Made by a program: the position numbers and the translations under genes. The notes under the pieces were generated by a model, which made no database searches, was not told the DNA's origin, and worked only from the letters and a program-made list of their open reading frames with translations. Source: Galaxea fascicularis (taxonomy: Eukaryota > Cnidaria > Anthozoa > Scleractinia > Euphylliidae). Taken from it: a stretch of DNA of 64,000 nucleotides. Below, one piece after another: positions 1-33,659 of this stretch. Position 1 is the first letter of the stretch. Each line of letters starts with the position of its first letter. Location: assembly GCA_948470475.1 (NCBI GenBank), contig OX419343.1, forward strand, positions 1,786,203 to 1,850,202, given 5' to 3'.

Positions 1-517
1 TCCAAAGACTGCACTGACCGTGATACACACATTGACACCGTTAATCAACATTAATGATTATCCTGAAATACCTAGCCTGCTCTAGAGCACTACAGGCAGG
101 CGTAGTTATATTCATGTAAATACAAACAAAGGTCTCTCACCCTCACCCTGCACTTGACAGTGACATGCCTGTACATTTGGGTGAGGTACAGCAAATACCA
201 AGTTGGAAGAGAGATCAGAATGTTCAAGAAACTAATTCCAAGTAATATCATCCAAACATATCTGCCTCTGACAACAGTTCTGTAATTATATTTCTGTTAA
301 CACTCCAACTTCCTTAAACTCAAGACCACCATTGCGAGTTTTATTAAAAGGTACATTCCTGTATTGTGTGGTTCCAGGAAATAGCCACGACTCCTCCACC
401 CCAACCCATGGGTTTTTTTGGTTTCTACCCCCCACAGCTCCAGAAATAACTGTTTAACTCCATACTTTTAAAAAATGTTTGCTTTTTCCATTTCCCTCCC
501 CTGTGGAATTTCCATTG

Positions 518-4800: not shown

Positions 4801-7800
4801 CTTCAAAGTAACAGTACATTGAATGTACCAGTACCATTAATTTTCAGTATTCTACATCAAAGTAATTATTATAATACACATATTACAATTAAATCAATTT
4901 TTTTTTTCATTTGATTTTTATTCAGTGAATCAGATTATATGGATAAAAACAGGCAAACTAGAATTCCTAAAAATTGGCAAAGTTTTTAAGTTTGCAAGAC
5001 ATGTTTCGATCAACCATCAATCATCATCTGTTGCAATTTGAAGTAAATTACATTTTTCAAAGCCTTTGCTGTTATTGATATATGCTATATTAAGTTCAAT
5101 GAACTTTGTTAATTATTTTGGGTTTTTGCAGGCAATTTGCCATATCTGTTGTTGGCAAGCTTTTCTGTCATTAGTCTACTATTACTACTATTACTATTAC
5201 TATTACTAATCCACTAATAAATACAATATTGTATTTATTCTAACTTATTTGCACAGGTCGCAACATAACATTACATTGGTTATTAAATTTTTGTGCCTCA
5301 CATAACGCCTGCTTTCCATGATATGTCATCCTGTTATCAGAGAGGTCCAACTGAGTGATTTGACGATTTATATGTTTTAGTGCATGACACAGGTGTGATA
5401 CACCTTTATCTGTTATACAGTTTTTAGAAAGGTTCAACTGAGTGATTTGACAATTTACATGTTTTAGTGCATCACACAGGTGTGATACACCTTGATCTCT
5501 TATAATGTTATAAGAAAGGTTCAACTGAGTGATTTGACAATTTACATGTTTTAGTGCATCACACAGGTGTGATACACCTTGATCTGTTATACTGTTGAAA
5601 GAAAGGTTCAACTGAGTGATTTGACAATTTACATGTTTTAGTGCATCACACAGGTGTGATACACCTTGATCTGTTATCCAGTTCCGAGAAAGGTTCAACT
5701 GAGTGATTTGACAATTTACATGTTTTAGTGCATCACACAAGTGTGATACACCTTGATCTGTTACACTGGTCCGAGAAAGGTTCAAGTGAGTGATTTTACA
5801 ATTTACATGTTTTAGTGCATCACACAGGTGTGATACACCTTGATCTGTTATACTGTTGAAAGAAAGGTTCAACTGAGTGATTTGACGATTTACATGTTTT
5901 AGTGCATCACACAGGTGTGATACACCTTGATCTGTTATCCAGTTCCGAGAAAGGTTCAACTGAGTGATTTGACAATTTACATGTTTTAGTGCATCACACA
6001 GGTGTGATACACCTTGATCTCTTATAATGTTATAAGAAAGGTTCAAGTGAGTGATTTGACAATTTACATGTTTTAGTGCATCACACAGGTGTGATACACC
6101 TTGATCTGTTATACTGTTAAAAGAAAGGTCCAACTGAGTGATTTGACAATTTACATGTTTTAGTGCATCACACAGGTGTGATACACCTTCATCTTTTATA
6201 CTGTTCTCAGTAAGGTTCATCTTGGTTGGTTTTGTGAGATACTTTACAAAATATGTGATTGCTGTGCAATCAACAGATGTGACCTGACAAGCACTTAAAT
6301 CTATATCATTAAATTCATGATTGTTCCTTTCCAGTTCAGAAGCTGCTTTGTTTACAGTTTCCTCGTCATTGTGCTCATGTAAACAGTTTAACATCAGCAG
6401 AGTCTGAGTCGTCTGTTCTGTTGATGGAAAGTGTTCCTTCATTGTGTCAAGAAGAAGGCTGACAAAGGTGTCAATGGCTTCATGTTTCTTACCATGGAGT
6501 AAACCAGCTACAAACTGAATAACCAAATGCCACTTTGGATCTGAAGAATTTGAGGAGATAAAATTGCTGAGGTCAGTGGGTGGCATCTTTGTAATTTCCT
6601 GAGCAGCAAGTAACTCTTGCAGAGTCAGATGAAGGAAGCAGAAATGGGACTCAAACTTCAAAGGTCCAGCTTCAACATCTGGTAAACGGTGAAGCAAACC
6701 ACAGTTTTCCATCCCCTGAACTTCTTTTGATCCAAACACCAGCTGTCTTGACTCTATTCCTTTTTTGGCCAGTGACCTCACTTGGTTCAAAGCCTTTTCA
6801 ACCGAGTCAGGGAAGCCATCTTTTCCCACGAGGTAATCTTTAGTCAATGGTCTTCCTTTAAATGCTGGGTGATGTTTAAAAATGAATAGTCTCAAAACGC
6901 CTGTAAAAATCTCTGTTAATGTTTTTGGTAATGTTCTTGCTGAATTGTGATCTTCGAGTGGAATCCACTTTTCCAGAAGAGAGCAAATGATGAAGCAGTT
7001 CACTGGTATATAGCACAATGACAGTAATTCTGCATTGCTGCTGATGTGCACCCATATCTTGCTCATCATCTCTGTGTTGTGTGCACAATGTTTTTGTACA
7101 TATTCCTGAACTTTCTCTGGTGTAAACCCCATTATCTCCACTAACCTGTTAAAGGTCAGACTTTCAACACTGTGCACAACGTTGGTTCTGCAGGTTGTTA
7201 GAATTCTGGCTCCAGGAAGCAGTTTACCTTTCACTAATTTGACATACAACGCAGCAAACGTCATCTTCTCTGTTGGACCCTCTCCATGCACTACCTCCTC
7301 ATCCTCCAAACAGGTTTCGTGGTGTTTAAATTCATCCAAGCCATCAAATATGAGAACAACTTTCTCTGGGTTATCTAAAATGTACTGAAACATGTCATTA
7401 TCACGACTCAGTAGCTCCTTAAGGGAAATCTTGTTCTCACTCGGTGTCTCAGAGTTGAAATGCCTGAATTGGAACAAGAAGATGTGTTTGTCACACAAGA
7501 TTTTATCGTTGCTCCAGTCACGCAGGAGTTTCTTACTAAGTACAGACTTTCCGATCCCTGGGCGACCAACAATAAGAATTTTTTGAGGATCTTGCGTATC
7601 TTCATTGGGAAGAAACAATTCTTCAAGATTCTTTATAGCAATGGATCCATGTTGAGGCCGCAAATAAACGTCATGGATTTCGTGTCTCTGTAACGAGTAA
7701 TCGAAAGTGTGGTTTGTTCTTCCAGTACAGATAACAAGGTCAACAAAAATGTCGTCCAATGCTTTCTTGTCTTTGCTGTCGCTGAAGGAAGCAATTAATG

Positions 7801-10800
7801 GTTCCAGATACTCCGTTTCTTCCTGAAATCGCCTTTTTAAGCGGAAAATCGAGTTGCGAAGGGTGACTGGAGTTCTGCTCTTCTTGAAAAAGTGCTTCAG
7901 ACAAAACTCGGAGTCAAAAGTAAATGCAGTATTACTTCGTCCTCGAACAAGTAGATAACACGTTTCTCCAAACACAAGAACTGCAAATAGAGCGTTGACA
8001 ATCCAAATTCCTTTTGCCCATAAAGCAAAGTCAGATCCAACAGAATTGTCACAGTTGACAGCGGATGAATCAGCTTTCGTTTGGCTGAAATGTGTGGAAG
8101 TTCCTGTTGATTTTACTGTAGCTGATACATCACAAAGACGACAAACGAATTCTGTTGGATAAGCAGCAACATAAAATACGAAGTTCTGCAACACTATGAA
8201 CAAAATCCCCAGTACGAGTCGTAGAAGCAAATGTACAAAGTAAGAACGGAACACTTTCCGAGTAGTGACTCTTGGTCTGGGACGAGGGTTTTCAGCGTCG
8301 GGCTTCATGGCGATTTCTATCTCATCAACTCGGGATTTCACGAAGCACCAAGAGTAAGCGATGGATACAACCACCAGAGGAAGGAAAGACAACAGGACAA
8401 AGCCATAGAGTGGAAAAGGAGAGTTGAACTGGTCATCATATTCTCGCAGACAGTTGTCGCGGCAGTTCGAGACGTTGCAACTAAACAATCTCCGCTCGCT
8501 TGTTCTCAGCTGGCCTGTAAATGCTGCAAATATTACCAATGCTGGGATGTGGAGGATGATTACAACATAGCCAAACGAACTGAAGTACTTTGAAAGCAAA
8601 TACTCCTTTAAAGTTTCCATTATAGCGCGGAGATTGTGAGGCTAGGCAGCGAGCTTGTGGCTGACAGGCTGCGGGCGGAAATTAGGTGTGGCGTTCGAGA
8701 ACTTTCGATCTATGAAGTCGCGATAAATCACGTGAAAAGACCGCCCGGGGTGAGAAGACGAATATACCAGACAATACGAAAGATCGTTTGTGCATTTCTG
8801 ATGACAGCTTGTGTTGCAGCGGTTTGAACGCTACTAAAGCAGGAGTGAAAAGAAAAAAGAAAGCTTGAAAAAATTTGGCTTGTGCGGTATAGAGGGATTC
8901 GGCTAACGTGTTTATATCCTTGTTGCCACCCAATTCAGATCATGTGATGATTCATTTGGGGGGTTACAATTGTTCTGTTTGTTCATACTTCCATGCGATC
9001 AGTTGTGTGTGACAAATTGCACAATGGTTACCTCCCAAATGAATCATCACGTGATCTGAATTGGGTGGCAACAAGGATGTAAACACGTTAGCCGGCCGAA
9101 TACGTCTATTCTTAGGTAACGGCAATCGAATAAGTCAAGTCACACCTTTGGCCGAATTTATACCAGAATCTGGGGCGAACTTCGTCTGACAATTCGTCTC
9201 TAGTATATATACTTGACGAATGATTCGTCTCGACGTGTGATCCGTTTTCATTCTTTAACTTTTAGCTTAAATGATAATTTTCCGTGTATTATTGCTTTAA
9301 GTCTTACATTACATCACATTGAGTTCTTTAACGTTAGACGATCGTTTATTCCTGTTAAACCATCTTAATGAAGCTTGAACTGCCATGCAGCATCCACCCA
9401 CGAGGCGCGAGGCGGGAAAAAGAAGAGGGGGGCGGTAAAATTAAGTGAGGCTAAATTTAATCATCGCCAAATTAATGTGGCTCCCTTCAAGAGCTTTATG
9501 CAGTTACTGGTGTTCACGAACGTCGGAGACGGCGTCAGAGTCAAAATCAAAAGCGTACAGCGAAGTGATTTAAAATCAAACTGACGGAGTCGGAAGCAGA
9601 ATACTTATTCCGCTTCAGTATAGCTCCGTCGCTTATGATCAAGTGAAAACTAGATTGTCGGAGTCGCAAGCACTATTTTGGTATCAAACTGTCGCCGGCG
9701 TCACAAGTGCAAGTGGAACAAAATGGAAACCCTCTGGGGGTTTTTTCCGATTCCGGTTTGTGTAACAGGGACTGTAGAAACCAATCCCCTCGCCTAGCCC
9801 CAGTCCGTGCGGCTGCCTATAAATAGTACCACCTTCGCGCGGGTTATGCTAATCGCCATTTCACTCGAGCTCGTAAGGTTAAGTTATAACTACGTTACGT
9901 TCTTTACTTCGTTCCTTCGATTGCTTTATTCTCAAATCGTCAGGTAATGTCTTTTTCCTCTTCGTTTATCTCGCATTTCCTATGTTATCTGTATTTCCTA
10001 TGTTATTTCAATTGCTGTAATTAGTTGTCCTGCTCTTAATCTGTTATGTATGTTTCTTTATTCTAGAAACCACTGGCAACATGATGTTAACAGGTTAAGA
10101 GTTTAAGTCTCTCTTCAAGTATTAAATTTACTGGTGCGTTGGTTACAGGGACTAAAACTGCTAGTTGACCTGGTTGCTGAGCTAATAAACCTGAGAAACC
10201 GGGTTCAAATATTCCCATCACCCCACCCCTGTTAAGACTAAATTGTGCTTCCATCGGCATTTTTTAGCTGCACACCTTTACCCTTTTTGTGTATTTGTGA
10301 ATGCGTTTGGTTGAGGTGTTTGCTTCACATGTTTAGCTTAAGCGAATGATACACGGTTCAACATTTGTTGAGCAACTTGTTGAACGGAATAGAGCCAAGC
10401 TCTATTTTTGTTCAACAACTTTCAACATGTTGAACGGCATATCAGTTCAACGATCAACATCACATGATACACTATTCGACATTTGTTGAACAGCAGCTTC
10501 AGCATTTGTTGTTCAACAAATGTTGAACCGTGTATCATTCGCTTTAGAAAGTATTGACCACGAATCCCAGGTGAATAAAATTGCTTTACCTCGCTTTCCC
10601 CCAGTTCTTCCTATAATCTTTCAGAATTATTTTGTTTAATCTGCAGGAAAAAGTTGCTCTTGGCTCTGCCGGCATTGCAACAACTGGATGGTGAAGACAT
10701 AACCAAAGAGCAAAGACTTGAGGCTGGGTGTCCTGTGTAAGTAGTTGCAACTTATTTGGTCTGTCATTTGACAACATTTTCATTGTTATTTTTGTAAGGA

Positions 10801-16342: not shown

Positions 16343-19300
16343 CTATCTCCTGGGAGGGGGCGGTGGGGGAGGAGGAGCTCCTCTTGACGGGGGAGGAGGA
16401 GGTGGTGTGTTTCTCACTCCACTTGGATTCCCAGAAGACTTTGCACCACCTGAAAATAAAGATGTCATTCAGGTGAATCTTAAAAAACTAATTTAACTTT
16501 CTTAATTATTTTAATTTTTAGTCAACACCCTGAAAAACCAAGAAAGAAAAAGGACCAGTGAAAGACTAAGGGTCTCAACTGAAACCTAAAACCTTCACTG
16601 CACACTGTAATTATCACTGATGAAAATCAAAAATGGGGACCTTAAGATTTCAGTATGATTGCACCATCAAGTATTTGTATCACCTCCTTGGAACCCTCAG
16701 TCTTCCTTGTTCACCAGCAGATATTGAGATTGTAGAAACAATTATTGAAATCACAAGTGATTACCTTACTCACCAGATCTGAAATGTTGTACTCGTACTC
16801 AAATCAAAAGGTCCCTGATACGCAGTTAGCTCAACTGAGGAGACCTTTTGCAACAGTCACATCAACTTTGCACAAACACATTCCATTTTAGAGAATTTTA
16901 CAAAGAGTACAAAGACCATATCAAACTTAGAAAGACAATTTTCAGGCTTAAAACTCAAAAAGCAAAACACCTAAGACTGTTCTAAATTAGAAGGATTTAT
17001 TTGGGAATTACCCGTACAACCCTTTCCAAGTCATGCCAGTGGTTTTTCCAACTGCTATAAAATCTCCTCCTTCCTTACTGTAAGAAAATTTTTTTCGTTA
17101 TGGGCACTTTAATTGGTCCATGTCAGTCTAGTGCCTTGAGGTTATTTGCAAATGTTACAGTTGAAATGATATCCTCTGATCAAACCACTGTCATTGCACT
17201 GCTAAACATTATAACCAAAGTATGTTGCAGCATCTTTTGATTTTTACAAGTCAAAATGAATTAGTTGACTACTCACCACTTTTTCTGGGGTTTTTACTTG
17301 GATAAGTTTTTGCCGTATCTACAAAGGGCTCAGGTGGCGGAAGATCAGTGCTAAATTGAAATCTTGATTCAAAATCATCTGTAAGTAACCAGAAGAAATA
17401 CACTTTGTTGGTGAAAGCTCAATAAAATGGTTCTGCATCACAACATATAATGTTATCACGTACTGTTCTACTGTTATTGCAACACTGGATCTATCTATTC
17501 ATTTACACGATTGTTTTTCACTTTTTACAGCTACAGAATGCTGAGTAGTCAATTATCACTGTCTATTTTGTTCACAACAGTCTTGATAACAGAGAGCTTA
17601 ACACAGTGACAGCAATGAAAATGTCACTTCAAATTTAACATCTTGTTCTTTTATTATTCCAAATTGTTTAACTTGGAAAATACTGGCAAATTCTCCAGGG
17701 ACTAAACTACTGTAAATGGCAACAAAGTAAGGAAAAAGAAAGACATTTGCTGCCATGCAGAGAATGGCAAAGAAATGTACCAAAATGTAAAATGCATAAG
17801 CAGACTGATTGGTTTTGCTCATTAAACCCATTGTTTTGCAATGTTCTCATTGCTGTTGCTGCCCTAATAGCAATTGTTGGGTGAGCAACAATTGGGAAAA
17901 ACTAGCAAATGGTTGTGGGCCCTTAAATGTGTATACACCTCCTTATCAACTGTTAACGTCCTTCCAAAACATTGTCAAAGGATCCCCAAAAGTACATTTT
18001 GATGGAAAGGGTGTGGAATTATAACATTGTTACAAAGATGCTGTTCACAGCTCAGTTGGTAGCCTTACCTTAAAAAGTTCAGATCAAATTTTGAAGATTT
18101 TAATTGAGCTTACAAAGTAGAAAAAGCTGAAGAGTTATCAACTTATGGCAATGATATATATATACGCCGCGGGCTGTACTCGAGACAGAGGTCACAGTTT
18201 TTCCCAATACAGACCGACCAAGGCCGGTGAATAACATTTTTATTTACTGCTAAATTCTATTTTTAGAAGGTAGGGGAAACTATTAAGAAAAACTGGAAAA
18301 GTCATGTTTTTATTTTACACATTGTCTCATCAATGTGTCAACAAATGTACAATATAATAAATTGGTCAGGAATATTTTTACACTGTGTGAAGTTTCACTT
18401 TCAAAAGTCAACAAAAAACAATAGGCCATATTCGTATTCTTGATATTGAACTGGATCTAGCATGAAGTGGAGGCTCTTGCGGGGGAATCTTTTCATATGT
18501 AAATGTATTCCCCCGCAAGAGCCTCCACTTCATGCTAGATCCAGTTCAATACCGAGAATACGAATATGGCCTATTAAGACAAATTGAAACTTCGCTCTTT
18601 CAATTCGCAACTTCACTCTGTGCTTAGCATAGTTGGTTACCATGACCATGGTCAGGAGATAGGAAAATACTGCCTGCTTCCGGAACCAATCAGATTGCAG
18701 GATTCTCAGGATACCGCCCGCTCACGATCAAAGAAATAAATAAAAAACATTATTTACCTCCTGAGTTCATCACAGCCTCTGGTGGAGGTGGTGGGAGTGA
18801 GTTTCTAGTAGGTCCATTCATCATTGTATTAGAAGATCTGTTACTTGACGATGGCGGTGGTGGAGGTGGCAGCCCTGTTCTCTTTTCTGTGCCTCCCCTG
18901 GCTGGGGGTGGAGGTGGTGGGCCCAGCCCCCCTGAAGGTGGTGGAGGAGGTAAAGGAGCTGATCCTCGGCTGGGTGGAGGTCCACCACTTGTTCTCTTAT
19001 TCATGGGAGGGGGTGGTGGGGGTGCTTGAGATGGTGGTCTTGAAGATGGTGGTGGAGGGGCTCTACTGGGGGGTGGAGGTGGTGGACCTCCTCTTGAGGG
19101 GGGAGGGGGTGGGGGTCCTCCTCTTGAGGGAGGCAGCTGTGGAGGTGGTTGCATGCTTGGGTTCGATCTTGAAGGAGGTGGCGGAGCAGGTGCTCTTGTA
19201 GCTGCAGACAATGAGGATGGTGGTGGTGGTGGAGGTGCATTTCCTCTTCCTGGTGGTGGAGGTGGGGGACCTTGTCTCATTGTAGATGGGGGCCGTGGTG

Positions 19301-22300
19301 CACCACCAGGTGGGGGAGCTGGTAATGGTCTTGATCCTTGTCCTGATGGGGGTGGTGGTAATGGCCGTGAGTTATCAGACGCTGATGGCTTGTTTACCAT
19401 TGGATGTGGTGGTGGAGGAGCAAAACTGGGGGCTTTGCCCGGTGGGGTGGGGAGAGGCCTTGAATTACTGCTGGGAGGAGGTGCAAGTGGTGAACCAGAG
19501 TTATTGGGTGAAGGTGGTTTAAATCCTGGAGGTTTCATTGCTGGTCCTTTGGCACCTAAATAAAAATCAAGTAAACAGAGTTGTCCAATGGGAGAAATGC
19601 ATATCTCTGCAATAAACACAAGTTAGTCAGGGTAGGTGAGGAGAGAAATGCTTTCAAAACTAAAGGACAGAAGACCAGAAACAGAAGAGAAAAGCAACAA
19701 GGTAATAAAGCCAGAAATGATGCCACAGAAATCGAGATGATTGTATTATAATTGAAGGGCTGAGAGCACGACCGACCTTTGTCAAATTTTAGGTCGTTTT
19801 TTGATTCTGCTTGGACTTGTCCGAATTCTTGCATATGAACTGTAATTTGATTGTAAAACATTGTCCAATACAAACTCAGCCAAACTAAAAAAGTACTGGA
19901 CAATGTTTTACAATCAAATTACAGTTTATATGCAGCAATTCGGACGAATCCGAGCAAAATCGAAAAACGACCTAGAATTCGACATACAGGTTGGTTATGC
20001 TCTCCGCCCTTCAATTTTTGAAACAACATTACCTTTACCAACTAGTAAACTCTTTCACAAACCTTGTGGCTAACCAACAGTAAAATTCCCTGACTTTTCC
20101 CCAACATTTGGGTAGAATTTTGAATTTCCCTGCCTTGATGCACAATTCCCTGATCTTTTCTCCGAACTTGAAAAAATCTAGTTTCCCATTCTTTTTCCTA
20201 ACTGTGGCACCTCGACAGAGTGGTAGTCAAAAGAACAAACCACATGATATAGAAAACGATTAGGGCAAGTGCAGTACAGATAAATATTTAGAAATTTTGA
20301 CAGACTTTACTGGGTTTGCTGTATGTCTGGTGTTTGCTGACGTCACCAGGCCAATTCAGTCAAGGTTGCCACACACTGGGATAGAAAAAAGTTCTGACTT
20401 TTCATTGAGACATAAAAAAAAAAGTATGGAAAAACATCTGTGCTAAGGCAGATGATTTAAAGCTGGTTAAATGTTGAAAGTTCAAGGCAAGCATAACCAT
20501 CAGCATCTATCTGTAAACATAGGTACCCACATTATACCTATACCTATGACTACATTATCCCTGTTTACATGTGTGATGCAACATTGAACTCATAAGCAAA
20601 AGCACAAGAAAATGGAACTATTTTCTTGAGCTTGTGTTTCTGTTTGTGTCCTTGCATACCTGTAACCAGACAGCTACGTCACTATGTAGTAGCACAAACA
20701 CAAAGACAAACTCGTCATCCTAAATTTTGTTTTCAAAATAGGGAACATACCAACAGCATTCAACAAGCATGCATTTGTCACATCATGCATACAGTGTAGG
20801 TTAACTGCATGTACAACTTAACTGCCTTGTGCTGACGCTTACACTTGTTCATATATAAATATGAGCAAAGGAAGCGCAAGGGAACCTTGACAAGGATTCC
20901 TTAACGCTTTCATTGATGTTATCTTGTACCTCCTGTTCCAGGTTTGCCTCTTTCTCCAGCTGATTTTAGTTTTGGCATTCCCCCAGCAAATAAACCACCA
21001 AGTCCCATGGGTGATGCACCCATACCACCACCACTCCCGCCACTGCTGCCACCACCGCCACCACCGCTTGGACTTGGTTTAACTAGGAAGAAAGAGTGTC
21101 AGTAATGTCAGTGAAAAGAAGGATACACACCAGGGCCCAGTTGTTCGAAAGGCGATTAACATAATCCAGGATTAGCGTAAACTTTGGTTGCAGTTTTTAA
21201 CTATTGGATGAAAGTTGTTTTCGCTGTTTTTTGTTTTTCAGGATTGACTTTCCCTAATCTAAGATTTTGCAGAATATCGGCATTGAACAATGTTTGGGGA
21301 CAGAGAAATAAGCTCCTTGATTAATTTTTAATCCTGGATTAGCGTTAATCAGCTTTCGAACAACTGGGCCCAGTTGTTTGTAAATACACCTTTGCCTGCT
21401 CTTGGCCCTTGGTATTTGGTGAGCGATTTTAACTATTTTTGCTTTACAGATTCAAAACCTTTTCAACAGCTTTGAACTCAAGGACACATTACAGCCCTTG
21501 CTGAAAATCATAGATCACAACACACTGTTACATTAACATTACTGTCCATGATGCTATGGATAACAGGCTGTGTAATATGAAGCAGCAATTGCTTAATATG
21601 TTGTTACAAACATCAAGCCAGCTGCAGCCAATTGAAAAATTGTTGAGGCACTCCTGATGAAAAACAGCTTTTCTCTTTATCGCTGCTGGTAAGAAACCTG
21701 TGAGATATCACGCACACCCCTTTCCTTCTTAAAGTTGTTCATCCAAGTTCCGAGCATGGTGTTGCACTGATGGCAACTTTGATAAGGAGGGGGGGCGGGG
21801 GATGGAAAGCACAAGATTATAGAGACATCACTACACCCCTAAATTAATGGTTGTAGCAAGCAAATAAAGCAATATTTCAACCACAGTTTGTGCTTGCTGA
21901 TGAACACCTTATTTACACACAATTCCGATATAAGTGTTCATTTGCCTGATTGACTGACTTTTATTTATTTCAACTTTATAATTCAAGAATTTAATGTCAC
22001 TTCATTTTAAGCATGCTATTTCACCTCAAATAAATGTCTAAATTGTGTTATTTTTAAATAATTTTAGGCCTTGGCAGCATGAATTCAGTCAGTGGAAAAG
22101 CGTGTGCAGGTTACTGTTTGATGGCTGTTTTGACAGTTAATTGGATTACCTGAAAATCAGTGGGTGGGGATTTAATAACGCAGTCTTTCAGGCAGGTGTT
22201 CCTTTCAAAGTTTTTGAACATTTAACATGTTTATGTGAGCAGGTACATGTAAAACACAGTAAATGCCAATGAATGTCATTTTAAATTGATTGATTGATTG

Positions 22301-22625
22301 ATTGATTGATTGGTGTATTGATTGATTGATTGATTGATTGCACTGTGGAAAATGGTCATGTCTATTACAGCCAATGCATGTCCAAATAAGATCACTTAAA
22401 CCTTGAAAGTCGGCAATGGAATACAACAGTGTACATACCTCCTCCTACAGAGGGAGCACTGCGATCATTTGTCTCCGTTTTCTTAAGCCTGGCACCTTTA
22501 TGGATCTGACTCAACAGAGCTCCCCTGTCAGTTGGCTTCCCAGAGGACTTAGATGGCGGTGGACCAGAATGCCTGGGTGCAGGGGGAGGGGGTGGTCCTG
22601 GAGGGGGAGGGGGAGGGGGAGGCAT
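16343..22625 (-). CDS. WIPF: WIP: WAS/WASL-interacting protein, complete copy
   Basis: Five coding exons, read right to left: 22439-22625, 20930-21082, 18758-19555, 17277-17378, 16343-16449; 1347 nt, 448 residues. All borders are GT-AG and all phases agree. Residues 1-30 are proline-rich. A WH2 actin-binding motif follows (RGALLSQIHKGARLKKT, then NDRSAP, about 34-58). Exon 2 is glycine-rich with GLGGLFAGGMPKLKS, as in verprolins. Exon 3 is a long polyproline region with SH3/profilin-type sites. Exon 4 has the WASP-binding segment (FESRFQFSTDLPPPEPFV, then AKTYPSK, about 382-410). The end is PPPPPPPRR. WIP binds actin and stabilises WASP/N-WASP. A 5' UTR acceptor is likely at 22674. Exons 1-3 lie inside the 13.6-kb duplication; exons 4-5 do not. 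Confidence 0.9.
18421..18575. mobile_element. Hairpin MITE, arms of about 75 bp (copy in unit 1)
   Basis: An almost perfect palindrome with ends ataggccatattcgtattc and its inverse, with a loop of only about 20 bp. It lies in WIP intron 3. The second copy is at 32065-32219. Confidence 0.9.
19751..20015. mobile_element. MITE with about 115-bp inverted arms (unit 1)
   Basis: Ends attgaagggc / gcccttcaat. The arms contain the word tggacaatgttttacaatca inverted around a short loop. It lies in WIP intron 2. The duplicate is at 33395-33659. Confidence 0.9.
21132..21372. mobile_element. MITE with gggcccagttgttcgaaag ends (unit 1)
   Basis: Inverted ends gggcccagttgttcgaaag with 'aatccaggattagcg' arms. 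Three relatives are in the window: 34776-35016 (its duplicate), 53555-53755 and 59824-60062. It lies in WIP intron 1. Confidence 0.9.
22286..22340. repeat. (TGAT)n microsatellite; duplicate at 35930-35984
   Basis: About 13 TGAT units with one interruption (tggtgtat). It has the same length in both duplication units, which supports a very recent copy because microsatellites change fast. Confidence 0.95.
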
Positions 22626-24506
22626 TTTTCACTTTTAAATTACTTACTCCCCCTTTGACAGTCCTTTGTATTATCTGAAAAACAAAAATTTATATATAGA
22701 CACAGAGGTTAAACACTGTAGTTGAAAGAACACATGGTCTCTTAATGACTGTTACCCTAAAAACCAAATTAGAAGGGGAGAGACAGGCCTCTGGTCGCTG
22801 AGGAGCCAAGAAATGTTTTCATATTATGACAGTGGGACAGTATTCATCCTAGTTCATTGATTGGTTCTTCAAATGAAACAACATTTGTAGTTGGCTGACA
22901 AAAAGCATGGTTTCCCTACCAACGTGAAATAACAAATCTGACTGGCTTTGAAAAAGCGTGTTTTCCCAGGTGACAGCAAAGCACAAAAAGGAGATTCTGT
23001 GTTTGTGTGACCAGAGGCTATTTTCTCCTCTAGGCACTTTGCGCCTCATGGCTGCAGTTTTGCACAATAATTTTCCTTCTACAAACTAAAGAAATAACCT
23101 CTAGCACCCAGGGTAAATGACTGCGTCCCAAGTAAAAAATACAGTACAATTAATGCAAATTAAAACCAAATAAACCTTGGCAAGTGAAATAAATCAGGGA
23201 GCAAACCAACAGAATGAGAAAAAAATTATTGACAAATGAAGTCCAATTAATTTGTATCTATAAAGTGTGTTAGTGGTGATGAAACATTTAGATCAAACAC
23301 ATTGAATTCAAAAAAAAATTTTCACCTTCCTTGTATAGCAGCTTTGAATGCTTAACATACTGGAACTCTATAATATTCTATTATTATTATCATTACTATT
23401 TCCAATTACAATAGTAACATGAAACCTGATATCATATGAACGGTAATTAGTAGTGTAACTATATTTTTCTGACTTCCTTGTGAGACAATATCATTGTTAA
23501 GTATGTAACAGCAAGCACGGAAATTCTTGGCAGGACGGTAAGAAATAAAGTTCAGTTTACATTGAAAGTGCTACTGCATAGAAATACCATGAGCTAAGTT
23601 CGTCAATAATGAGAAGGGAGACCCAGTAAGTGAACATTTCAGAAACTGAGCAATTAAGTGAAGTTAACCTATGCAAACCATTCGCAATTTAGGTGCGCGC
23701 GTACGACATTCCGTGATTCGAAGATACGCTACTTCCGCTATAGCGAGGTTTCGCTCTCTTTTCAAAACACTGTTTACTGCCACTTAAAATTCCGATACCA
23801 CTCTTTGGACCAAATAAAGCTCTGAAAGTTCAGTACCGACGAAGTCTCACATTTCCTCTAAGAATCTCAAACTCCAATACGAGGCGCCTGTACAAACACG
23901 GTAACATGTCCATTGGTCACACTTTTTTATAGTTCTTCACCATTTCCTAACCAGGTATGCTACAATTCTTACCATGATGAAGCCGGGAAATGCGACTTCA
24001 TGTGTAACTCGTTGCTTAAATTACTCGGAAGAAGGGTGACAGGGAAACAGAAAGGTGGTCATTGTAACTGGGATCCCAAAGCTAACCAAACTTACTAATG
24101 CAAGGGAATGAACTCGGCGGTCGTCTTAAACTAAGTTATGTGCCTACGGTGGGAGGCGTGTGCTAACATGTACACTGTGATTAATTCTAGTGACAAAGCA
24201 AAAAGCTGCGACAAGAACACATTCAAAGTCTAAAGCTCGAACGGTGTACCAAGAACCTGAAATCTTATGTCACTGTGAGAACGGAAAGGTAGGTGCAAGA
24301 ACTCTCAAAGTGGTGTTACCTGTATCATACAAGCGTTAGGATGGTTTCGTGTGCGATAATTCTTAGTTATCACGCGATTCTTACCTTACCACTCAGCCTC
24401 TATAATATAGAGGTTCCATACTTTTCTAGGGAATACGTCAGTTACTGTTGGGAAACCCAAGATCTCCAAGAACTCCAAGAATATGAACGGTTGCCGGTTA
24501 ATCAAA

Positions 24507-24704
24507 ATGGCCGTAGAAATAGTAAGCGAGTCTCATGTCGTCACCACCCCTGATTATGACGTATTTCCTCACATCCAGTCCAACGCTGAGCCGCGCTTCT
24601 CGCGGAAAATCGACACGTATAGCGCATCAAATTTCCTATCTAGGTGGCCCTCCTATCCCGATAACCTGTTTGACGATTTGTACATTGAACAGAGAAGACG
24701 TTAA
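24507..24704 (+). CDS. Unrecognised small ORF, 65 residues (duplicate at 38151-38348)
   Basis: ATG in good context (caaaATGG), 65 residues, ending DLYIEQRRR. The composition looks protein-like, with no low complexity. A strong donor (gtaagtat) lies 25 bp after the stop at 24730. A short palindrome (cctctataatatagagg) lies about 95 bp upstream at 24397-24413. I recognise no family. It could be a chance ORF or a first exon. Low confidence. Confidence 0.2.
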   Translation: MAVEIVSESHVVTTPDYDVFPHIQSNAEPRFSRKIDTYSASNFLSRWPSYPDNLFDDLYIEQRRR

Positions 24705-25206
24705 GCTGCTTCTCCCTGCTAAAATTTAAGTAAGTATCGAGTCACGAGATGATCCCTGATGCGCCTAAGGGATACCAAAAGCTCCTCGTGTTGGGTTCAA
24801 CTCCTGACAGATCGACACCATATCCAGTTTCTTTTCCAAAGTGAACATCTGTATTGTTCTTTTGTTGTTGTTGTTTTTTGTTGTTGTTGTTGAAAAGGCC
24901 ACCAACTAGGCTCCCAATGTACAGGGCAGCAAAAGATAACGTTTATTTAACCGCTCCTCAGGGGCAAGAGCAACGGCTAAATGAAAGGTGCCGGCAGAGA
25001 ATCACCCTGCGGAGTTAACCAAGACCGTCGAAAATTCACACTCTTCTTCGAACGCAAGGGGACGAAACATTGCGTTTTCTTTCGAAACCAATCCACATCT
25101 TTTTTAACTTCCGTGTATTGATCAGTTTAACCCTTTCAATGGTTTTAAGGGTTTAAAAAAACCCTGCAGTTTTCCCTTTCTGTTCTCATTATTTCTCTTT
25201 GGTAAT

Positions 25207-25782
25207 ATAGTCAACTCTCTCATAGCGACCACTTCTCGTAACCAATCACTTTGTAAATAACCGTTTTCTTTCTCAGTCAAATATTGTTTCAAAAACTCTC
25301 TCATAAGCGATCACTACTCAAATTTCTTAAGCGACTGCGACCACTTTTAGGGCAGAAATTTGACGTATTCTTTTGTTTTCTGCTTCGACTACCCAAGATG
25401 ATCACGTTTGATCCTTAGAAAATCATTACTCAAATGTCACAAGTCCAGTTTTTAATATCACTGACCCGGAGTGCCGACAAATAATAATAGTTTGCATACA
25501 AAAAAGATTGATAGATCCGTAAGTAAACAGGAATTGTTAATGTGATACAAAAGTTTCAACAGGAGTATTATGATAAAATTTTCGAGATGTTATTAGATGT
25601 GAAATATGCCAGTGTTTTATCTAACTCTAAATTTCGCTAAAAAGGTGATATTTTTATGTAATAAGAGTTAATCAATTCAGTTTTGCTTTTATTTTGTTGA
25701 CTTTTCTCGTAAGCGCCCACCTCCCGCAAGTGCCACTTTGTCGTGCACCAAGAGTGGTCGCTTACGAGAGAGTTGACTGTAG
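25207..25782. mobile_element. Tc1/mariner-like MITE (duplicate at 38851-39426)
   Basis: Inverted ends 'tagtcaactctctcatagcg' and 'cgcttacgagagagttgact', bordered by TA. A second inner copy of the end sequence lies near 25295. No transposase is seen. Confidence 0.75.
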
Positions 25783-25969
25783 TTGAGAGAATTTGCTCAA
25801 GTTTAGAATCCGAGCAGTCCCTCATTTTTCTCGTGCGTTTCTCAAACCCCCCGAAGCAGATCACAGTTTCAGAAATGGCTTTCCGGGACTTTCGAGAAAC
25901 GGGCCCCCGGATAGAAGAGCGCGCGAAGCCCGCGAGGCCTACGCGAAAATTGCCTCGCGCGAGGACAGG

Positions 25970-26460
25970 GCAGGATGGCCGAGTGGTCTGGGGCGCTGGT
26001 AAGAGTCTTTATTCATAGTCAAGTAGTCACAACATACGTGTGGTTTTACATACATGACAAAGCAATCTTATTAATTTAAGATCAAGTACAATTAAATAAA
26101 ATTAAAAAGACACCTATTAATAAATGATGTCTTAAAGCGTTCTAGCGTTAAAGCAGGTAAAATAAAATCGTGTCCTCTGTTTCGCTAAAGTCTCTGTTTC
26201 TTAGGGGGTAATAGTTGGTAAAGAGGATGGGAAGGAGTATCCATGGTAGTGTTCCATAGTTTACAGTCTCGATTTCTGATAACTTCGGCCAAAAGCCCCG
26301 AAGCGGATCCCGGGTTTAAGTCCCGTTCTGACCACCCGCTGGTGTTGTTCTGGGTAAGTGCCTGGTTCAGCTCCTCGGTCATCCTTGTAAATAGCCAACT
26401 GGTCTGCCTCCCGCCAGTTGAGATTCTCACCCTGTTTGCTCAGCCCCACTAGCATTTGTG
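25970..26460 (+). mobile_element. tRNA-derived SINE interrupted by a LINE fragment (duplicate at 39614-40104)
   Basis: The SINE head (gcaggatggccgagtgg) stops at about 25999 and its B-box part resumes at about 26300 (gatcccgggtttaagtccc). The body then matches the intact SINE at 27632. The 280 bp between belongs to a minus-strand LINE 3' end. Confidence 0.7.
26000..26278 (-). mobile_element. LINE 3' fragment inside a SINE (duplicate at 39644-39922)
   Basis: The minus strand encodes pieces like HPLYQLLPPKKQR and LTLERFKTSFINRCLFN, with one in-frame stop between. They resemble the extreme C-terminus of CR1-like LINE ORF2 and are followed by AATAAAGACTCTTA at the 3' end. It is a dead 5'-truncated copy. 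Confidence 0.55.
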
Positions 26461-27059
26461 CTGAATAAACTGCCGAGGGTAAATAAAAGTCATTTATTAA
26501 TCAAGAGGAAAACTGAGGAAGTACAAAGATTACGCGTTGTTCTATCAATAAAAAATCTTGGAGATTTTCAACAATCAGACGCTCCACTCTCATCACTCAA
26601 GATAACAGTGATTGTGGTTCAGTTCAAAGATAGATAAATCAAACTCTGGAAGAACTATTAGTAGGAAAATGTGTTCCAACTGGATTTGGCGGAAGTTCAA
26701 CTTAAGTTTTCCGCTTACTAAAGACGTTCGCGAACACGTTAGACTGCGTGGCAGGCGTAAAAGGGGAGGAGGATGGAGAACGAGAGAAAAATGGGTCTTG
26801 GTGATATCACTCAAAAACTCCCTCGAAGAAAAGACAAATGAATTGGAATTCTCGAAAGGTTATGGAAGCTCTGAATCCTTTCGCATAAACCTTTTTTTAA
26901 ACTTTGCATAATGTTGGATCTAAACACATCAATAACTGTTCCACAATTTAAAAAAAATGGGATTTACTGTAATCGTTTTTTGTCACTTGGGGGGCATCTA
27001 ACAGGTTATATTGTTATGGTAAACTGTGTTAGCAAAATTTCTAAACTTTTTAACCATCC

Positions 27060-27481
27060 CAGGGCTTGAAATAACTATTGGGCAGGCGCTGGACACATTG
27101 TCCGGTCAAACGTGATTTTGCTCGGACATAGGCATTTTTGGCCGGACAAATTTAATCCATCTTAACTAGTTGCAATAGAGGCTCCATTTTGAGAGGAAAT
27201 GGGCGCGCAATCTTCAGCAGTTTACAACACGCACAGCAGTAGCCAATTTGCGGTCGCGACTGACAACAGGAAATGTCATCAATTTCACAAACAAAAGTCC
27301 CTCTAGTTAGTATCTTTTTTGGGAACATGATAAGATTGAATAAATTTCCATCATGATTGTCTCAAAATTGAATTTTCTTTGAAAGCCCAAATGACCGGAC
27401 ATGTCCGGTCATCCACGGATTTGCTCGGACAACGATTCTGACCGGACATTGTCAGTTGACCGGCCGTTATTTCAGGCCCTG
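27060..27481. mobile_element. hAT-like MITE, cagggcttgaaataac ends (duplicate at 40704-41125)
   Basis: Inverted ends (cagggcttgaaataac / gttatttcaggccctg) and subterminal 'gaccggacatgtccggtc' words suggest a non-autonomous hAT. I could not define a clean 8-bp target duplication. Confidence 0.75.
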
Positions 27482-27631
27482 CATCCTTCCTCCAAATATT
27501 ATCTACAAAGCGATACAAAAGGCCACAAAATTTGTTTTTGTGCACCAACATGGCCGCCGTGACGTCATGTGGAAACGATTAGGCATTTGTTTGATATCCC
27601 CGTGAGTGTGGTTATGTGTTTATGTTTGGAA

Positions 27632-27775
27632 GCAGGATGGCCGAGTGGTTAGGGCGCTGGATTTCAATACGGTGACCCGGGTTCAAATCCCGCTCTGGCC
27701 ACTAGCTGGTGTTGTTCCGGGTAAAATAGCCAACTGGTTTGCCTCCCGCCGGTTGGGATTCTTATCATGTTAAGT
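27632..27775 (+). mobile_element. tRNA-derived SINE (duplicate at 41276-41419)
   Basis: The head has a Leu/Ser-like A-box (gatggccgagtggttagg) and a B-box (gggttcaaatcccgctctgg). It is followed by the body 'tagctggtgttgttccggg…gccggttgggattctta'. The tRNA fold is incomplete in the anticodon arm, so it is called a SINE and not a tRNA gene. Confidence 0.75.
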
Positions 27776-28530
27776 TTATTTGAATTATTTGTTTATTTGG
27801 ATTTAAGTGGAGTGCCTGTAAACTAGCTTGGATAGCTAAGTGCACTTCCACTATAAACACAGTATTTATGTAGTAACGATCCATCAAAGTGCTGGAGAGT
27901 GTTGGAATCCACACAAAGCATTGCTTGTTGGCTACAATTAAATCAGCTCTGGAATATTTGGAGAGCTGTCACTGACATATCTCAACTCTAAGAGACTGAA
28001 GGTGCCTCAGATGGCCCAAGTCTACAGTCACGTCATTTTACTGTTACCACTAACAATAATACAGAGGCACAAAGTGTGTCAAAAATGATTTTATTGAGAA
28101 GCAGGCTGCAACTAACTGAATACTGGCTCCCATTTGATGTGCAATTCAAGCATAGAAAGAAGTTTTCAATTAGCTTATGAAGAATTGGTATAATGCAAGG
28201 TCTCATGAACAAACTACTCCGACACATTTCAGCCACCACCACCAAGGCCTTTCAAACATAAGGGCTCTGAGTAGTTTTAGTAGAGAGCTGAAATCCACAG
28301 CTGACTAAAACAATCCCCAAAACTTAACTTAGCTTTAGTCTCTCTTCACAATTATGAAGCCTGTTTGCCATGAACTTTTGTTTGCACTTAGTAAACTGAC
28401 TACAATTCAAAGGTTACACGTGATCTCGCACATCTAGAGCATAACATCCATTACTGAAATATTTCCAGACAGAGAAGATGTTCAAAATTGAACCACGGAT
28501 TGAATTGTCATCAACCTTTCATCCATTCAT

Positions 28531-31230
28531 TCAAAATCCTCCCATCCCTCCCATGCCGCCCATTCCTCCCATACCCCCCATTCCTGCCATTCCAGCCATG
28601 TCAGCCTTCTCATCTTTGGGCATATCAACAATGACTGTCTCAGCAGTCGTCAGAAGTGAAGCCACACCTGCAGCATCTGTAATAGCTGTTCTAACTACCT
28701 TCGTGGGATCGATAATTCCACACTGGATCATGTCAACGTAAGTATTGTTCAGGGCATCATAACCATGGTTACCTTCCAAGGAAACAACCTGAAAATAACA
28801 AGAGGAATGAGAGGCAAGTTCGCCCAAACCCTCAGAAATTATTCAGTCTATAAATATCTGAATGTAAGTTGTACAAGAACATGAAACAGTAAGGTAACAG
28901 GACGGAGCTCAGGGAATAGTGTTCATTTAAAAGTACAGTCATGTAGGTGGGGAAGCTGCGAGTTACCAGAAATCTATACAAGCAAGTCAGGCACTGTCTG
29001 AACTGTGCCTCACAGCCACAAGCAATTAAATGCAGGTTTGCATACCTTTTCAACCACCAATGGTGCTTCTACACCAGCATTTTCTGCGATGGTCTGACAT
29101 GGTTTGCGAAGAGCTCGCCTCACAAGTTCAACTCCTTTTTGCTGGTCTTCATTACTTGTTGAAAGGTTCTCAAGGCTCTGAATGCATCTTAACAGTGCAA
29201 CACCTCCACCAGGGACAATGCCTTCCTCTACAGCAGCCCTTGTAGCATTAAGAGCATCATTGACACGATCCTTCTTCTCATTCACTTCTACTTCACTTGA
29301 GCCACCAATCTACAGAAAGTGTTTATCAAAAAGATGTTAATCATGGCTCCATGAAATTAACCAAATGAAGCCTGATATGGGCAGAGATGAAACAAAATTC
29401 ATGTTTTTCAAAACCAGTGAATTCAGGCATTGAAAACATAACAGCTTGATTTCTACAATGTTTTTGCACAATGGTCCTTGTTGGTTCTACACACCATGCA
29501 ATAAAATGGCATTAACACTTTGCAAGTTTGCACGCTGAACAAACTGGCTGACTTTTCCATTTTGCTGATGGCACCAAAAGTCAACATTTTATCCAGCAAA
29601 ACTGAATTCTCACCTTCAAGATAGCAACACCATCAGAAAGTCTCGCCAGTCTTTCATTTATTTTCTCTTTTTCGTATTCTGAAGTGGTGAGCTCCAGTTC
29701 TTCCCTGAGTTGTGTGCACCTCTTTTCAATTTCCTCCTTGTCTCCCTTGCCTTTGAGAAACAGGGTGTCATCTTTTGTGATTGACACCTCTCCAACTTCC
29801 CCAAGATCCTGAATTTGGATGTCTTCAATTTTGGTTTCTAATGCTTCATCTCCAAACACCATGCCTCCCATTGAAATGGCCATATCTTGAAGGGTATTTT
29901 TGCGATTATCGCCAAATCCTGGAGCCTTAACTGCAGCCACTTGAAGACCAACCTTAAGCCTAAACAATATAAAATAATTTTTTTTCCATAATTGATAAAA
30001 GTTTAAAATAATTATTTTTATCTGTCAAGGATCAATCTCGAGTTCCATGTTTTGTTTCTTTTCCGAGGAAGTTTTGACTCAACACCAACCACATAAAGTT
30101 GATATAATTTATTAGACTTCAAAACAACTACAAAGATTTTTGTTGTAGATTTTTAAAACATCTTTCTTTGTCTATAAAAGTTGAAAGCCAAAATCCAGTC
30201 CATGGATTGACCTGAACAACACTGATTTAGCATTCCTTTAATCAAAATCAAAATATTAATGATGGCATGTTTGAAGTTGTACTGTAGACAATCACTGCAG
30301 GTAAAACAAAAACTTCAAAATTGCATTAATATAGATAAATGAACACACAGGTAGTATTACATAGCTTGCAGAAGCGATCTATCACTTTAATGACAGTTGT
30401 GAAACCACAATTTGTGGCTTAAAAATTGCTTGAAAGTGGAAAGTGCTTAGCAGATGTCATTAGGCTTACCCCAAGTACTGAAAGAGTTATTTACCTGTTA
30501 AGCACAAGAGTCGTAAGTGCTTCACCATCAACATCTTCTGCCACAATAACAAGGGGTTTTCTGTGCCCATTGGCCAGTTCAAGGGCTGGAACAATCTGTT
30601 GAATGGATGAGATTTTCTTCTGGCAAAGCAGAACCAAACAATCCTGAAACTCAACCTTTTGTCCTACAAAAAAAGATAATGAGTTGGTTAACAAAAGCTT
30701 CAGTTTTATCAGAAGTGTGGTTTTGCTTATTTTGATACGGGTCTTAAAACTACAATACTGCACTTGACAATGACAGTGATTGTCCGCAATTACAAACACT
30801 ACTTGAGTAGTAGTGAAAACAAAGCCCCAAAAAATTCATGTTTGCACAGAGTCGAAAGCCATTACCTTTGCGATACTGGTGCAGTGCTCTACCAAATGAG
30901 CTTGCAAGCCAATTGGGAGACGGTCATTTTTTTTTGTGGGTTCATAACAAACCAGTGAGTGATAAAGAAACGAATGTGAAAATAATTTTTTTCAGGCTTT
31001 AGTTTCACAACTCCTCACATAGTGTTTACGACCACAACTATCACTTTCATCTTCATTCATTACTGCGAAGTTCAAATATATGATTTCATACATTCACATT
31101 AATTTAATACTGCAGTTCCTTCCACATTATCGTTACCTTTAGTGGTGTTGATAAAATATGGGGAGATGTAACCACGGTCAAACTTCATTCCCTCAATAAG
31201 CTCCAGTTCATCATGAAGAGTCTTACCATC
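28531..31230 (-). pseudogene. HSPD1: HSP60 3' half: exons 5-9 only (duplication remnant)
   Basis: Five HSP60 coding exons (31137-31230, 30495-30663, 29614-29959, 29046-29309, 28531-28788) are identical in reading to 44781-44874 through 42175-42432. They encode the region from [10 protein letters not shown] to the C-terminal GGM repeat tail. The exons for the mitochondrial targeting peptide and the ATP-binding GDGTTT region are absent because the duplication ended in intron 4. No exon is itself broken. The 3' UTR signal AATAAA (complement at 28090-28095) is retained. The nearest upstream promoter on this strand is that of the second WIP copy, so these exons could form the 3' part of a chimeric transcript. 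Confidence 0.88.
30770..30920 (-). mobile_element. tRNA-derived SINE in HSP60 intron (duplicate at 44414-44564)
   Basis: On the minus strand 'agctcatttggtagagcact' then 'gtaatggctttcgactc' is an A-box/B-box pair of a SINE head, followed by a body with 'gaattttttggggcttt'. Confidence 0.6.
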
Positions 31231-31571
31231 CTGCAAGAGAAAAACGTAGTCTATCTTACTTCTTGACACTAAAAATAACAGCTGTTGCTAATGCTACCCA
31301 TCAAATAGAATAAAGCCATTCCAGTGAAATGCTATTCCTTTACTTTTTTTTTTTCTTTTAATATTTTCTTGACTAACTTTTATATTACAATTCGTTTTCT
31401 GATTAGATTAATCACTGATAATCATAATCATCAAAATCATAATAAATAATAGATGCTGAAACTCCTACAGCAAAGAGGATTATGTTTGTTGCTTTTTATG
31501 GGCTGGGAAGAAACCAGAGTACCCAGAAGGAAACCTCTCAGGGCAAGAAATTAAACCCTGGCCACATTTGG

Positions 31572-31748
31572 CAGAGGTTTCATTAAGGTTCTGAGCAGAA
31601 AGGCAATAACTTTTCACAAGCAGGCAAATATGTTTCGATTTAACTTATTTATCACAAAAAATTGCCTTGATGTGCGCATGGCAGGTGGGCAAAACACTGT
31701 TTACCACTGGCCAATTTGCCTGGTGCCTGGCCTTTAATGAAACCTCTG
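31572..31748. mobile_element. MITE with cagaggtttcattaaggtt ends (duplicate at 45216-45392)
   Basis: Ends cagaggtttcattaagg and its inverse. It ends 29 bp from the duplication breakpoint. A related element is at 55730-55905. Confidence 0.85.
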
Positions 31749-32064
31749 ATTTGGTGAGAGGTGAGTGCTCTTTAACTGTTATCAACTTATGGCAATGATA
31801 TATATATACGCCGCGGGCTGTACTCGAGACAGAGGTCACAGTTTTTCCCAATACAGACCGACCAAGGCCGGTGAATAACATTTTTATTTACTGCTAAATT
31901 CTATTTTTAGAAGGTAGGGGAAACTATTAAGAAAAACTGGAAAAGTCATGTTTTTATTTTACACATTGTCTCATCAATGTGTCAACAAATGTACAATATA
32001 ATAAATTGGTCAGGAATATTTTTACACTGTGTGAAGTTTCACTTTCAAAAGTCAACAAAAAACA

Positions 32065-32219
32065 ATAGGCCATATTCGTATTCTTGATATTGAACTGGAT
32101 CTAGCATGAAGTGGAGGCTCTTGCGGGGGAATCTTTTCATATGTAAATGTATTCCCCCGCAAGAGCCTCCACTTCATGCTAGATCCAGTTCAATACCGAG
32201 AATACGAATATGGCCTATT
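32065..32219. mobile_element. Hairpin MITE (copy in unit 2)
   Basis: Duplicate of 18421-18575. Here it lies in the intron joining WIP exon 3 to HSP60 exon 5 in the predicted chimera. Confidence 0.9.
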
Positions 32220-33394
32220 AAGACAAATTGAAACTTCGCTCTTTCAATTCGCAACTTCACTCTGCGCTTAGCATAGTTGGTTACCATGACCATGGTCAGG
32301 AGATAGGAAAATACTGCCTGCTTCCGGAACCAATCAGATTGCAGGATTCTCAGGATACCGCCCGCTCACGATCAAAGAAATAAATAAAAAACATTATTTA
32401 CCTCCTGAGTTCATCACAGCCTCTGGTGGAGGTGGTGGGAGTGAGTTTCTAGTAGGTCCATTCATCATTGTATTAGAAGATCTGTTACTTGACGATGGCG
32501 GTGGTGGAGGTGGCAGCCCTGTTCTCTTTTCTGTGCCTCCCCTGGCTGGGGGTGGAGGTGGTGGGCCCAGCCCCCCTGAAGGTGGTGGAGGAGGTAAAGG
32601 AGCTGATCCTCGGCTGGGTGGAGGTCCACCACTTGTTCTCTTATTCATGGGAGGGGGTGGTGGGGGTGCTTGAGATGGTGGTCTTGAAGATGGTGGTGGA
32701 GGGGCTCTACTGGGGGGTGGAGGTGGTGGACCTCCTCTTGAGGGGGGAGGGGGTGGGGGTCCTCCTCTTGAGGGAGGCAGCTGTGGAGGTGGTTGCATGC
32801 TTGGGTTCGATCTTGAAGGAGGTGGCGGAGCAGGTGCTCTTGTAGCTGCAGACAATGAGGATGGTGGTGGTGGTGGAGGTGCATTTCCTCTTCCTGGTGG
32901 TGGAGGTGGGGGACCTTGTCTCATTGTAGATGGGGGCCGTGGTGCACCACCAGGTGGGGGAGCTGGTAATGGTCTTGATCCTTGTCCTGATGGGGGTGGT
33001 GGTAATGGCCGTGAGTTATCAGACGCTGATGGCTTGTTTACCATTGGATGTGGTGGTGGAGGAGCAAAACTGGGGGCTTTGCCCGGTGGGGTGGGGAGAG
33101 GCCTTGAATTACTGCTGGGAGGAGGTGCAAGTGGTGAACCAGAGTTATTGGGTGAAGGTGGTTTAAATCCTGGAGGTTTCATTGCTGGTCCTTTGGCACC
33201 TAAATAAAAATCAAGTAAACAGAGTTGTCCAATGGGAGAAATGCATATCTCTGCAATAAACACAAGTTAGTCAGGGTAGGTGAGGAGAGAAATGCTTTCA
33301 AAACTAAAGGACAGAAGACCAGAAACAGAAGAGAAAAGCAACAAGGTAATAAAGCCAGAAATGATGCCACAGAAATCGAGATGATTGTATTATA

Positions 33395-33659
33395 ATTGAA
33401 GGGCTGAGAGCACGACCGACCTTTGTCAAATTTTAGGTCGTTTTTTGATTCTGCTTGGACTTGTCCGAATTCTTGCATATGAACTGTAATTTGATTGTAA
33501 AACATTGTCCAATACAAACTCAGCCAAACTAAAAAAGTACTGGACAATGTTTTACAATCAAATTACAGTTTATATGCAGCAATTCGGACGAATCCGAGCA
33601 AAATCGAAAAACGACCTAGAATTCGACATACAGGTTGGTTATGCTCTCCGCCCTTCAAT
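33395..33659. mobile_element. MITE with about 115-bp inverted arms (unit 2)
   Basis: Duplicate of 19751-20015. Confidence 0.9.

Follow-up and report, generated by a model that had tools for sequence, protein, structure and literature searches.

A four-pass, connexin-like domain fused to NACHT and leucine-rich repeats in the stony coral Galaxea fascicularis: a candidate channel receptor

Does a coral immune receptor carry its own channel? The question is raised by one gene in a stretch of 64,000 nucleotides of the Galaxea fascicularis genome (GenBank assembly GCA_948470475.1, contig OX419343.1, positions 1,786,203 to 1,850,202 of the forward strand), here called the window and numbered from its first letter. 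A single reading frame at 5240..8620 on the minus strand runs uninterrupted from ATG to stop and encodes 1126 residues, in which a four-pass membrane domain precedes a NACHT domain and leucine-rich repeats (LRRs). An earlier note on this DNA had likened the four-pass domain to connexins. We give a chance of roughly one in two to the reading that the protein is a sensor of the nucleotide-binding, leucine-rich repeat (NLR) type whose N-terminal effector has the connexin fold, is a remote homolog of connexins and serves as a NACHT-gated immune channel. The parts of the protein are listed below with coordinates, strand and, in brackets, the basis of each assignment.

5240..8620, minus strand: complete coding frame, 1126 residues, four-pass domain plus NACHT plus LRRs (frame; relatives with the same plan)
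8579..8620, minus strand: N-terminal segment, residues 1-14, with a short helix at 2-7 in the place of the connexin N-terminal helix (AlphaFold2 with DSSP; paralogue model alike)
8486..8578, minus strand: predicted first membrane helix, residues 15-45 (model; hydrophobic window 12-39)
8411..8485, minus strand: putative extracellular loop 1, residues 46-70, with invariant C48 and C57 and with C53, which is limited to a subgroup (alignment of relatives)
8306..8410, minus strand: predicted second membrane helix, residues 71-105 (AlphaFold2 model)
8258..8305, minus strand: putative cytosolic loop, residues 106-121, proline-rich and basic (model; K+R 9 and D+E 5 over residues 93-125)
8174..8257, minus strand: predicted third membrane helix, residues 122-149, with conserved Y127 and R134 (model and alignment)
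8042..8173, minus strand: putative extracellular loop 2, residues 150-193, with invariant C160 and C190, with C163, which is limited to a subgroup, and with two short strands (model and alignment)
7937..8041, minus strand: predicted fourth membrane helix (TM4), residues 194-228, with invariant E219 and Y222 (model and alignment)
7586..7936, minus strand: putative cytosolic linker from the channel-like domain to NACHT, residues 229-345 (AlphaFold2, mostly low confidence)
7079..7579, minus strand: NACHT NTPase domain, residues 348-514 (Pfam, 3.5e-25)
7544..7567, minus strand: Walker A, GRPGIGKS, residues 352-359 (sequence)
7328..7354, minus strand: Walker B, LIFDGLDEF, residues 423-431 (sequence)
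5243..6232, minus strand: LRR array of ten GVSHLC[DH]ALK units at 29-residue spacing, from about residue 797 to the end (Pfam LRR_6, 1.5e-38; repeat count)

The earlier note had described much of this layout accurately: the four strongly hydrophobic segments (windows 12-39, 67-95, 123-156 and 198-226), the six loop cysteines (C48/C53/C57 and C160/C163/C190), the full Walker motifs, the LRRs behind the NACHT domain and the third-pass pattern, which reads RSYFVHLLLR. Its fourth-pass motif is present with a different spacing, ETCYLLVRG being E-x-x-Y-x-x-x-R-G, one residue shorter than proposed. A weaker fifth hydrophobic window lies at 530-550, C-terminal of NACHT; C92 is also found within residues 1-200; and loop 1 comes after E42 of an E-x3-F-x-C motif that is common to connexins. 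With Walker A and B in its NACHT domain and LRRs at the C-terminus, the protein has the defining parts of an NLR. The closest solved structure for the NACHT domain is NLRP3 (6.2e-22), and a TTCR motif stands at residue 475. Neighbouring LRR units are 83-95% identical in DNA.

The part ahead of the NACHT domain belongs to the protein. A protein search with residues 1-300 gave 142 proteins at E <=0.01, and the best 120 of these (E <=4.7e-85) are 54-76% identical to the query and all carry a precomputed NACHT domain. The alignment starts at the relative's own residue 1 in 115 of 121 rows, query included. This frame is therefore conserved as protein and is not a separate untranslated region, which the earlier note had still considered.

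AlphaFold2 models of the window protein and of a divergent paralogue, built on alignments of 55 and 49 rows, predict a four-helix fold of the connexin, pannexin and LRRC8 type, with a short N-terminal helix, a helical loop 1 and a stranded loop 2; confidence for the first block of the window protein is low (predicted local distance difference test score, pLDDT, 51). Connexins are the top structural match for both models, with LRRC8 close behind and pannexin-1 also a neighbor, so that the predicted fold of the earlier note is borne out. On these models the N-terminal domain very probably has a large-pore fold, as found in connexins and likewise in LRRC8, pannexins and innexins. Viral structures compared with the paralogue model gave no match at E <=0.001.

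Remote sequence similarity favors connexins over pannexin-1 and LRRC8A. When the first 253 residues are scanned against Pfam, the sole family at E <=1 is Connexin (PF00029; 4.2e-4), at 20.6 bits and thus below the curated cut-off of 31.3; the E value is 0.0078 when the whole protein is scanned. Thirteen of 15 diverse family members match the same model, the best at 4.7e-5, and none of five reversed or shuffled controls does. Consensus sequences were tried as a means of raising the score and gave no gain (17.4-18.4 bits). In the PDB a single-sequence search found no connexin and only a weak unrelated match (E 0.19). A 15-member profile run against all PDB sequences gave 12 matches at E <=10, 11 of them gap-junction proteins, the best at 0.0043 over positions 14-225 (0.35 for its best single stretch alone); the twelfth is a small reaction-centre polypeptide. 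Innexin, pannexin and LRRC8 appear neither in this profile search nor among the 15 Pfam families matched by the 15 members, both at E <=10 and with HMMER filters that hide most weak matches.

Profile-profile comparison by hhalign of 119 coral sequences with eight human connexins gives a probability of 89.9% over 186 columns. Connexins taken singly reach 0.5-18.5% with raw scores of 17.1-28.9; the family reversed and four other membrane proteins, entered as single sequences, stay at or below 0.4%, the raw scores of the four being 13.2-15.9. As single sequences pannexin-1 scores 15.3 (0.2%) and LRRC8A 13.2. Shuffling the family alignment 300 times, within column blocks of 5 or 12 so as to keep the hydrophobic layout, gave a best score of 35.9 versus 48.3 for the real alignment, and a best probability of 52%.

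Of the 186 aligned columns, 40 show a single residue across the eight connexins and 59 are conserved in the corals to 95% or more; 15 belong to both sets, an overlap that is not above chance (P = 0.24). In ten of these 15, corals and connexins have the same residue, and these include the outer cysteines of the two loops, the E and the F of E-x3-F-x-C (a motif found in 118 of 119 relatives), the Y-D behind the final cysteine of loop 1 and the glutamate of TM4; the count is descriptive only, because the alignment was optimized for likeness. Connexin loop signatures, in the form of PROSITE-like patterns, occur for each pattern in all eight human connexins and in 0 of 119 relatives. The four-pass domain is probably homologous to connexins; within its sequence the pointers would be its match to the profile and where the outer cysteines stand, not the number of cysteines.

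That number had been the leading argument of the earlier note, which held that three cysteines per loop mark a connexin. The note was right about the predicted fold and probably about the kinship, but this argument fails. C48, C57, C160 and C190 are kept in all relatives that span them (119, 119, 121 and 121, respectively). Loop counts were made on 119 of the 121 rows, query included, with the truncated P0041 and P0113 left out: both middle cysteines are present in 20 and absent in 99, always jointly, and the window protein belongs to the three-cysteine subgroup, the part of the family with the closest resemblance to connexins. In a tree of 46 rows (quick search, root not fixed, loop columns omitted; P0110 and P0113 were left out of both the tree and the consensus sequences), the 15 three-cysteine rows form one side of a single branch with a Shimodaira–Hasegawa-like approximate likelihood ratio test (SH-aLRT) value of 100. 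Three conserved cysteines per loop are thus a subgroup trait and not a property of the family. As only 20 of 119 relatives have the middle pair, the cysteine count alone is no mark of a connexin, and it was rejected as proof of kinship.

The middle cysteines of connexins are paired in a disulphide, which the joint pattern of C53 and C163 would fit, but this pattern has no statistical weight because a single change on the tree accounts for it. C53 is matched to C60 of Cx26 in the profile alignment, but C163 does not line up with C174. Two cysteines per loop would be the more likely ancestral state, since the most divergent row, P0138, has two; that row sits on a long branch of a tree without a fixed root, and the middle cysteines may have been lost instead of gained.

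The protein most likely lies in the membrane with both ends in the cytosol, as charge bias and N-glycosylation sequons suggest. Both the cytosolic loop and the residues following TM4 are basic. Loop 2 carries sequons in 118 of 119 relatives, at 4.18 per 100 residues; the cytosolic loop has none, loop 1 has them in 2 of 119, and after TM4 they fall to 0.39 per 100 residues (at least one in 44 of 119 members). The sole exception for loop 2 is the window protein itself, whose loop sequon lies in loop 1. One survey holds that pannexin docking is blocked by loop glycans, yet it marks certain innexins that carry loop sequons as functional in gap junctions (PMC8769644). For the coral family an unpaired hemichannel appears more likely than a docked channel.

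The same architecture, sought in other anthozoans, was found there. Organism names accompany seven of the best 120 relatives, four further ones among the best 120 of 136 proteins (E <=10) obtained with a divergent member as query, and one of the shorter relatives. These are Oculina patagonica, Desmophyllum pertusum, Pocillopora verrucosa, Pocillopora meandrina and Stylophora pistillata, all Scleractinia of the suborder Vacatina (NCBI taxonomy); most matches carry no species label. Database labels are NLRP12-, NLRP3- or NLRC3-like or uncharacterized, and none of the names examined mentions a channel. A search for shorter relatives, which scored the 7,997 candidates sharing most words, gave 30 matches of 133-412 residues, 24 of them on contigs below 20 kb. 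Of nine inspected, eight look like fragments of the same coral family and one is chimera-like, and no stand-alone channel protein was recognized among these nine of the 30. The chimera-like one, P0151 (341 residues), seems to have an unrelated stretch of bacterial appearance joined to the TM4 region of the coral family and is probably an assembly chimera. No second copy of the protein was found in the window by tblastn at E 1e-3.

How does such a protein compare with known systems? With connexins (PF00029) the family shares the predicted four helices, the short N-terminal helix and the secondary structure of both loops, and it has the outer cysteines, E-x3-F-x-C and the glutamate of TM4 where connexins have them; unlike connexins, most members lack the middle cysteines and all lack the loop signatures, loop 2 bears sequons, a NACHT-LRR part is fused on, and the named relatives are corals rather than chordates. 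Pannexins and innexins are alike in their four passes, in having the two conserved cysteines per loop of most coral members and in extracellular-loop sequons, but differ in the profile searches already described. The volume-regulated LRRC8 anion channels have no NACHT domain between channel and LRRs, and no LRRC8 sequence match to the coral family is seen at E <=10. NLRP3 and its relatives likewise have a NACHT domain in which both Walker motifs are intact, followed by C-terminal LRRs, but known NLRs carry PYD or CARD as the N-terminal effector, whereas the coral effector would be a four-pass membrane domain. The sea-cucumber proteins AjNLRC4 and AjNLR-new are also NACHT proteins placed in the membrane by a transmembrane part of their own; they differ in combining immunoglobulin and transmembrane parts with NACHT, the passages that describe them mention no four-pass channel fold, and AjNLR-new is reported there with its NACHT domain outside the cell (PMC13133943).

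If the coral protein is a channel receptor, it might work as follows. Sensing by the LRRs would release the NACHT domain, and nucleotide exchange would let NACHT domains form a ring as in NLR assemblies. This ring would assemble the subunits, or reshape a ring already present, and so organize or open a pore made by the N-terminal domains, a large-pore hemichannel through which ions and small metabolites such as ATP could leave as an alarm or death signal. The scheme would join the LRRC8 plan, channel plus LRR, to the switch of an NLR. That the four-pass domain forms a pore is the side to which we incline, with some reserve; the opening of the pore, its gating by NACHT, oligomerization and the immune role are all inferred.

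The four-pass domain could instead be a membrane anchor and an extracellular sensor or adhesion module that forms no pore, holding the NLR at a membrane, with signaling through NACHT partners, a scheme already proposed for the membrane NLRs of a sea cucumber. For that echinoderm, NACHT receptors bound to the membrane and equipped with other modules have been described (PMC13133943). Loop 2, with its considerable length, its many sequons and its size differences from one paralogue to the next, would also suit a surface for ligand binding. One helix would suffice as an anchor, however, and the models of two divergent paralogues keep the large-pore fold with its short N-terminal helix and conserved outer loop cysteines; we judge this explanation unlikely. 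Much the same weight goes to descent from the pannexin, innexin and LRRC8 side, with the connexin likeness due to convergence and the protein an LRRC8-like channel with NACHT inserted. What sets it apart from the channel-receptor reading is ancestry rather more than mechanism. In its favor, LRRC8 and pannexin-1 are neighbors in structure, LRRC8 has the order channel then LRR, and the innexin and pannexin number of two cysteines per loop is the commoner state among the coral relatives (99 of 119). Against it, all three families go unmatched in the Pfam and PDB profile searches at E <=10, where HMMER filters hide most weak matches, and pannexin-1 and LRRC8A score lower in hhalign than any of the eight connexins.

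A gap-junction protein, with rings docked between coral cells and a NACHT-LRR gate on each side, would agree with the connexin-like fold and outer loop cysteines, with the missing loop-2 sequon of the window protein and with the sequon-bearing innexins marked as functional. It is made quite improbable by the loop-2 sequons of the other 118 rows and the loop-1 sequon of the window protein, by the reported block of pannexin docking by glycans and by the absence of the connexin loop signatures from all 119 rows. No more credible is a decaying or unexpressed copy whose channel-like part has no function at this locus: the high DNA identity of the LRR units is what ongoing repeat turnover would give, but 1126 codons are open, the Walker motifs and invariant cysteines are intact, and 142 related proteins exist.

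Other features of the window deserve brief mention. The LRR region at 5316-6219 is a near-identical tandem DNA repeat (90-93% between shifted copies), so the number of LRRs may be allele-dependent or an error of the assembly. At 18134-31779 and 31778-45423 lie two direct copies of 13,646 bases each, end to end and 99.993% identical; they represent either a tandem duplication of very recent date or an artefact of assembly. A proline-rich frame of 289 codons, at 18750-19619 and 32394-33263 on the minus strand, is identical in DNA in both copies and has no Pfam match at E <=1; we take it to resemble the WASP-interacting-protein type of sequence. An open frame of 456 codons at 60318-61688, minus strand, contains an NAD-dependent epimerase domain (PF01370, 9.1e-20). 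A tRNA search of the window found none.

One survey, which among non-chordates found no connexin-like protein except one unconfirmed sea-urchin transcript, states that connexins arose de novo in chordates (Welzel and Schuster, PMC8769644). Another holds them to be characteristic of chordates only and scores Hydra as without one of two gap-junction families, by context connexin (Slivko-Koltchik and co-authors, PMC6391747). Both describe searches of the BLAST type, which would probably miss the coral domain. The effector would probably escape domain-model surveys of coral NLRs as well: a survey of cnidarian receptors counted non-repeat domains below E 10^-4.9 (PMC8260672), and the best of our 15 members reaches 4.7e-5. 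A coral genome paper tags NLR ends longer than 250 residues without a domain as noneDetected (PMC10236652). The word connexin does not occur in the main texts of these last two papers. In the open-licence literature no paper was found that brings together connexin, NACHT and a cnidarian, which leaves absence from print unproven; nor do titles and abstract openings in that literature on connexins in cnidarians, connexin origins, large-pore channels and transmembrane NLRs report a connexin-domain NLR.

The wider proposal, that corals own a one-protein channel receptor with a connexin-homologous pore within an NLR and that the connexin fold was already present in the cnidarian-bilaterian ancestor, is put forward tentatively, as less likely than not. 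In plant resistosomes the NLR itself forms the channel, and the coral protein, if correctly read, would be their animal counterpart, with sensor, switch and pore in one chain. A coral homolog of the connexin fold makes the origin of connexins a testable question. If the proposal is true, connexins had no de novo origin in chordates; the fold may at first have served as a glycosylated immune hemichannel, and the gap junctions of chordates would have put it to use only later.

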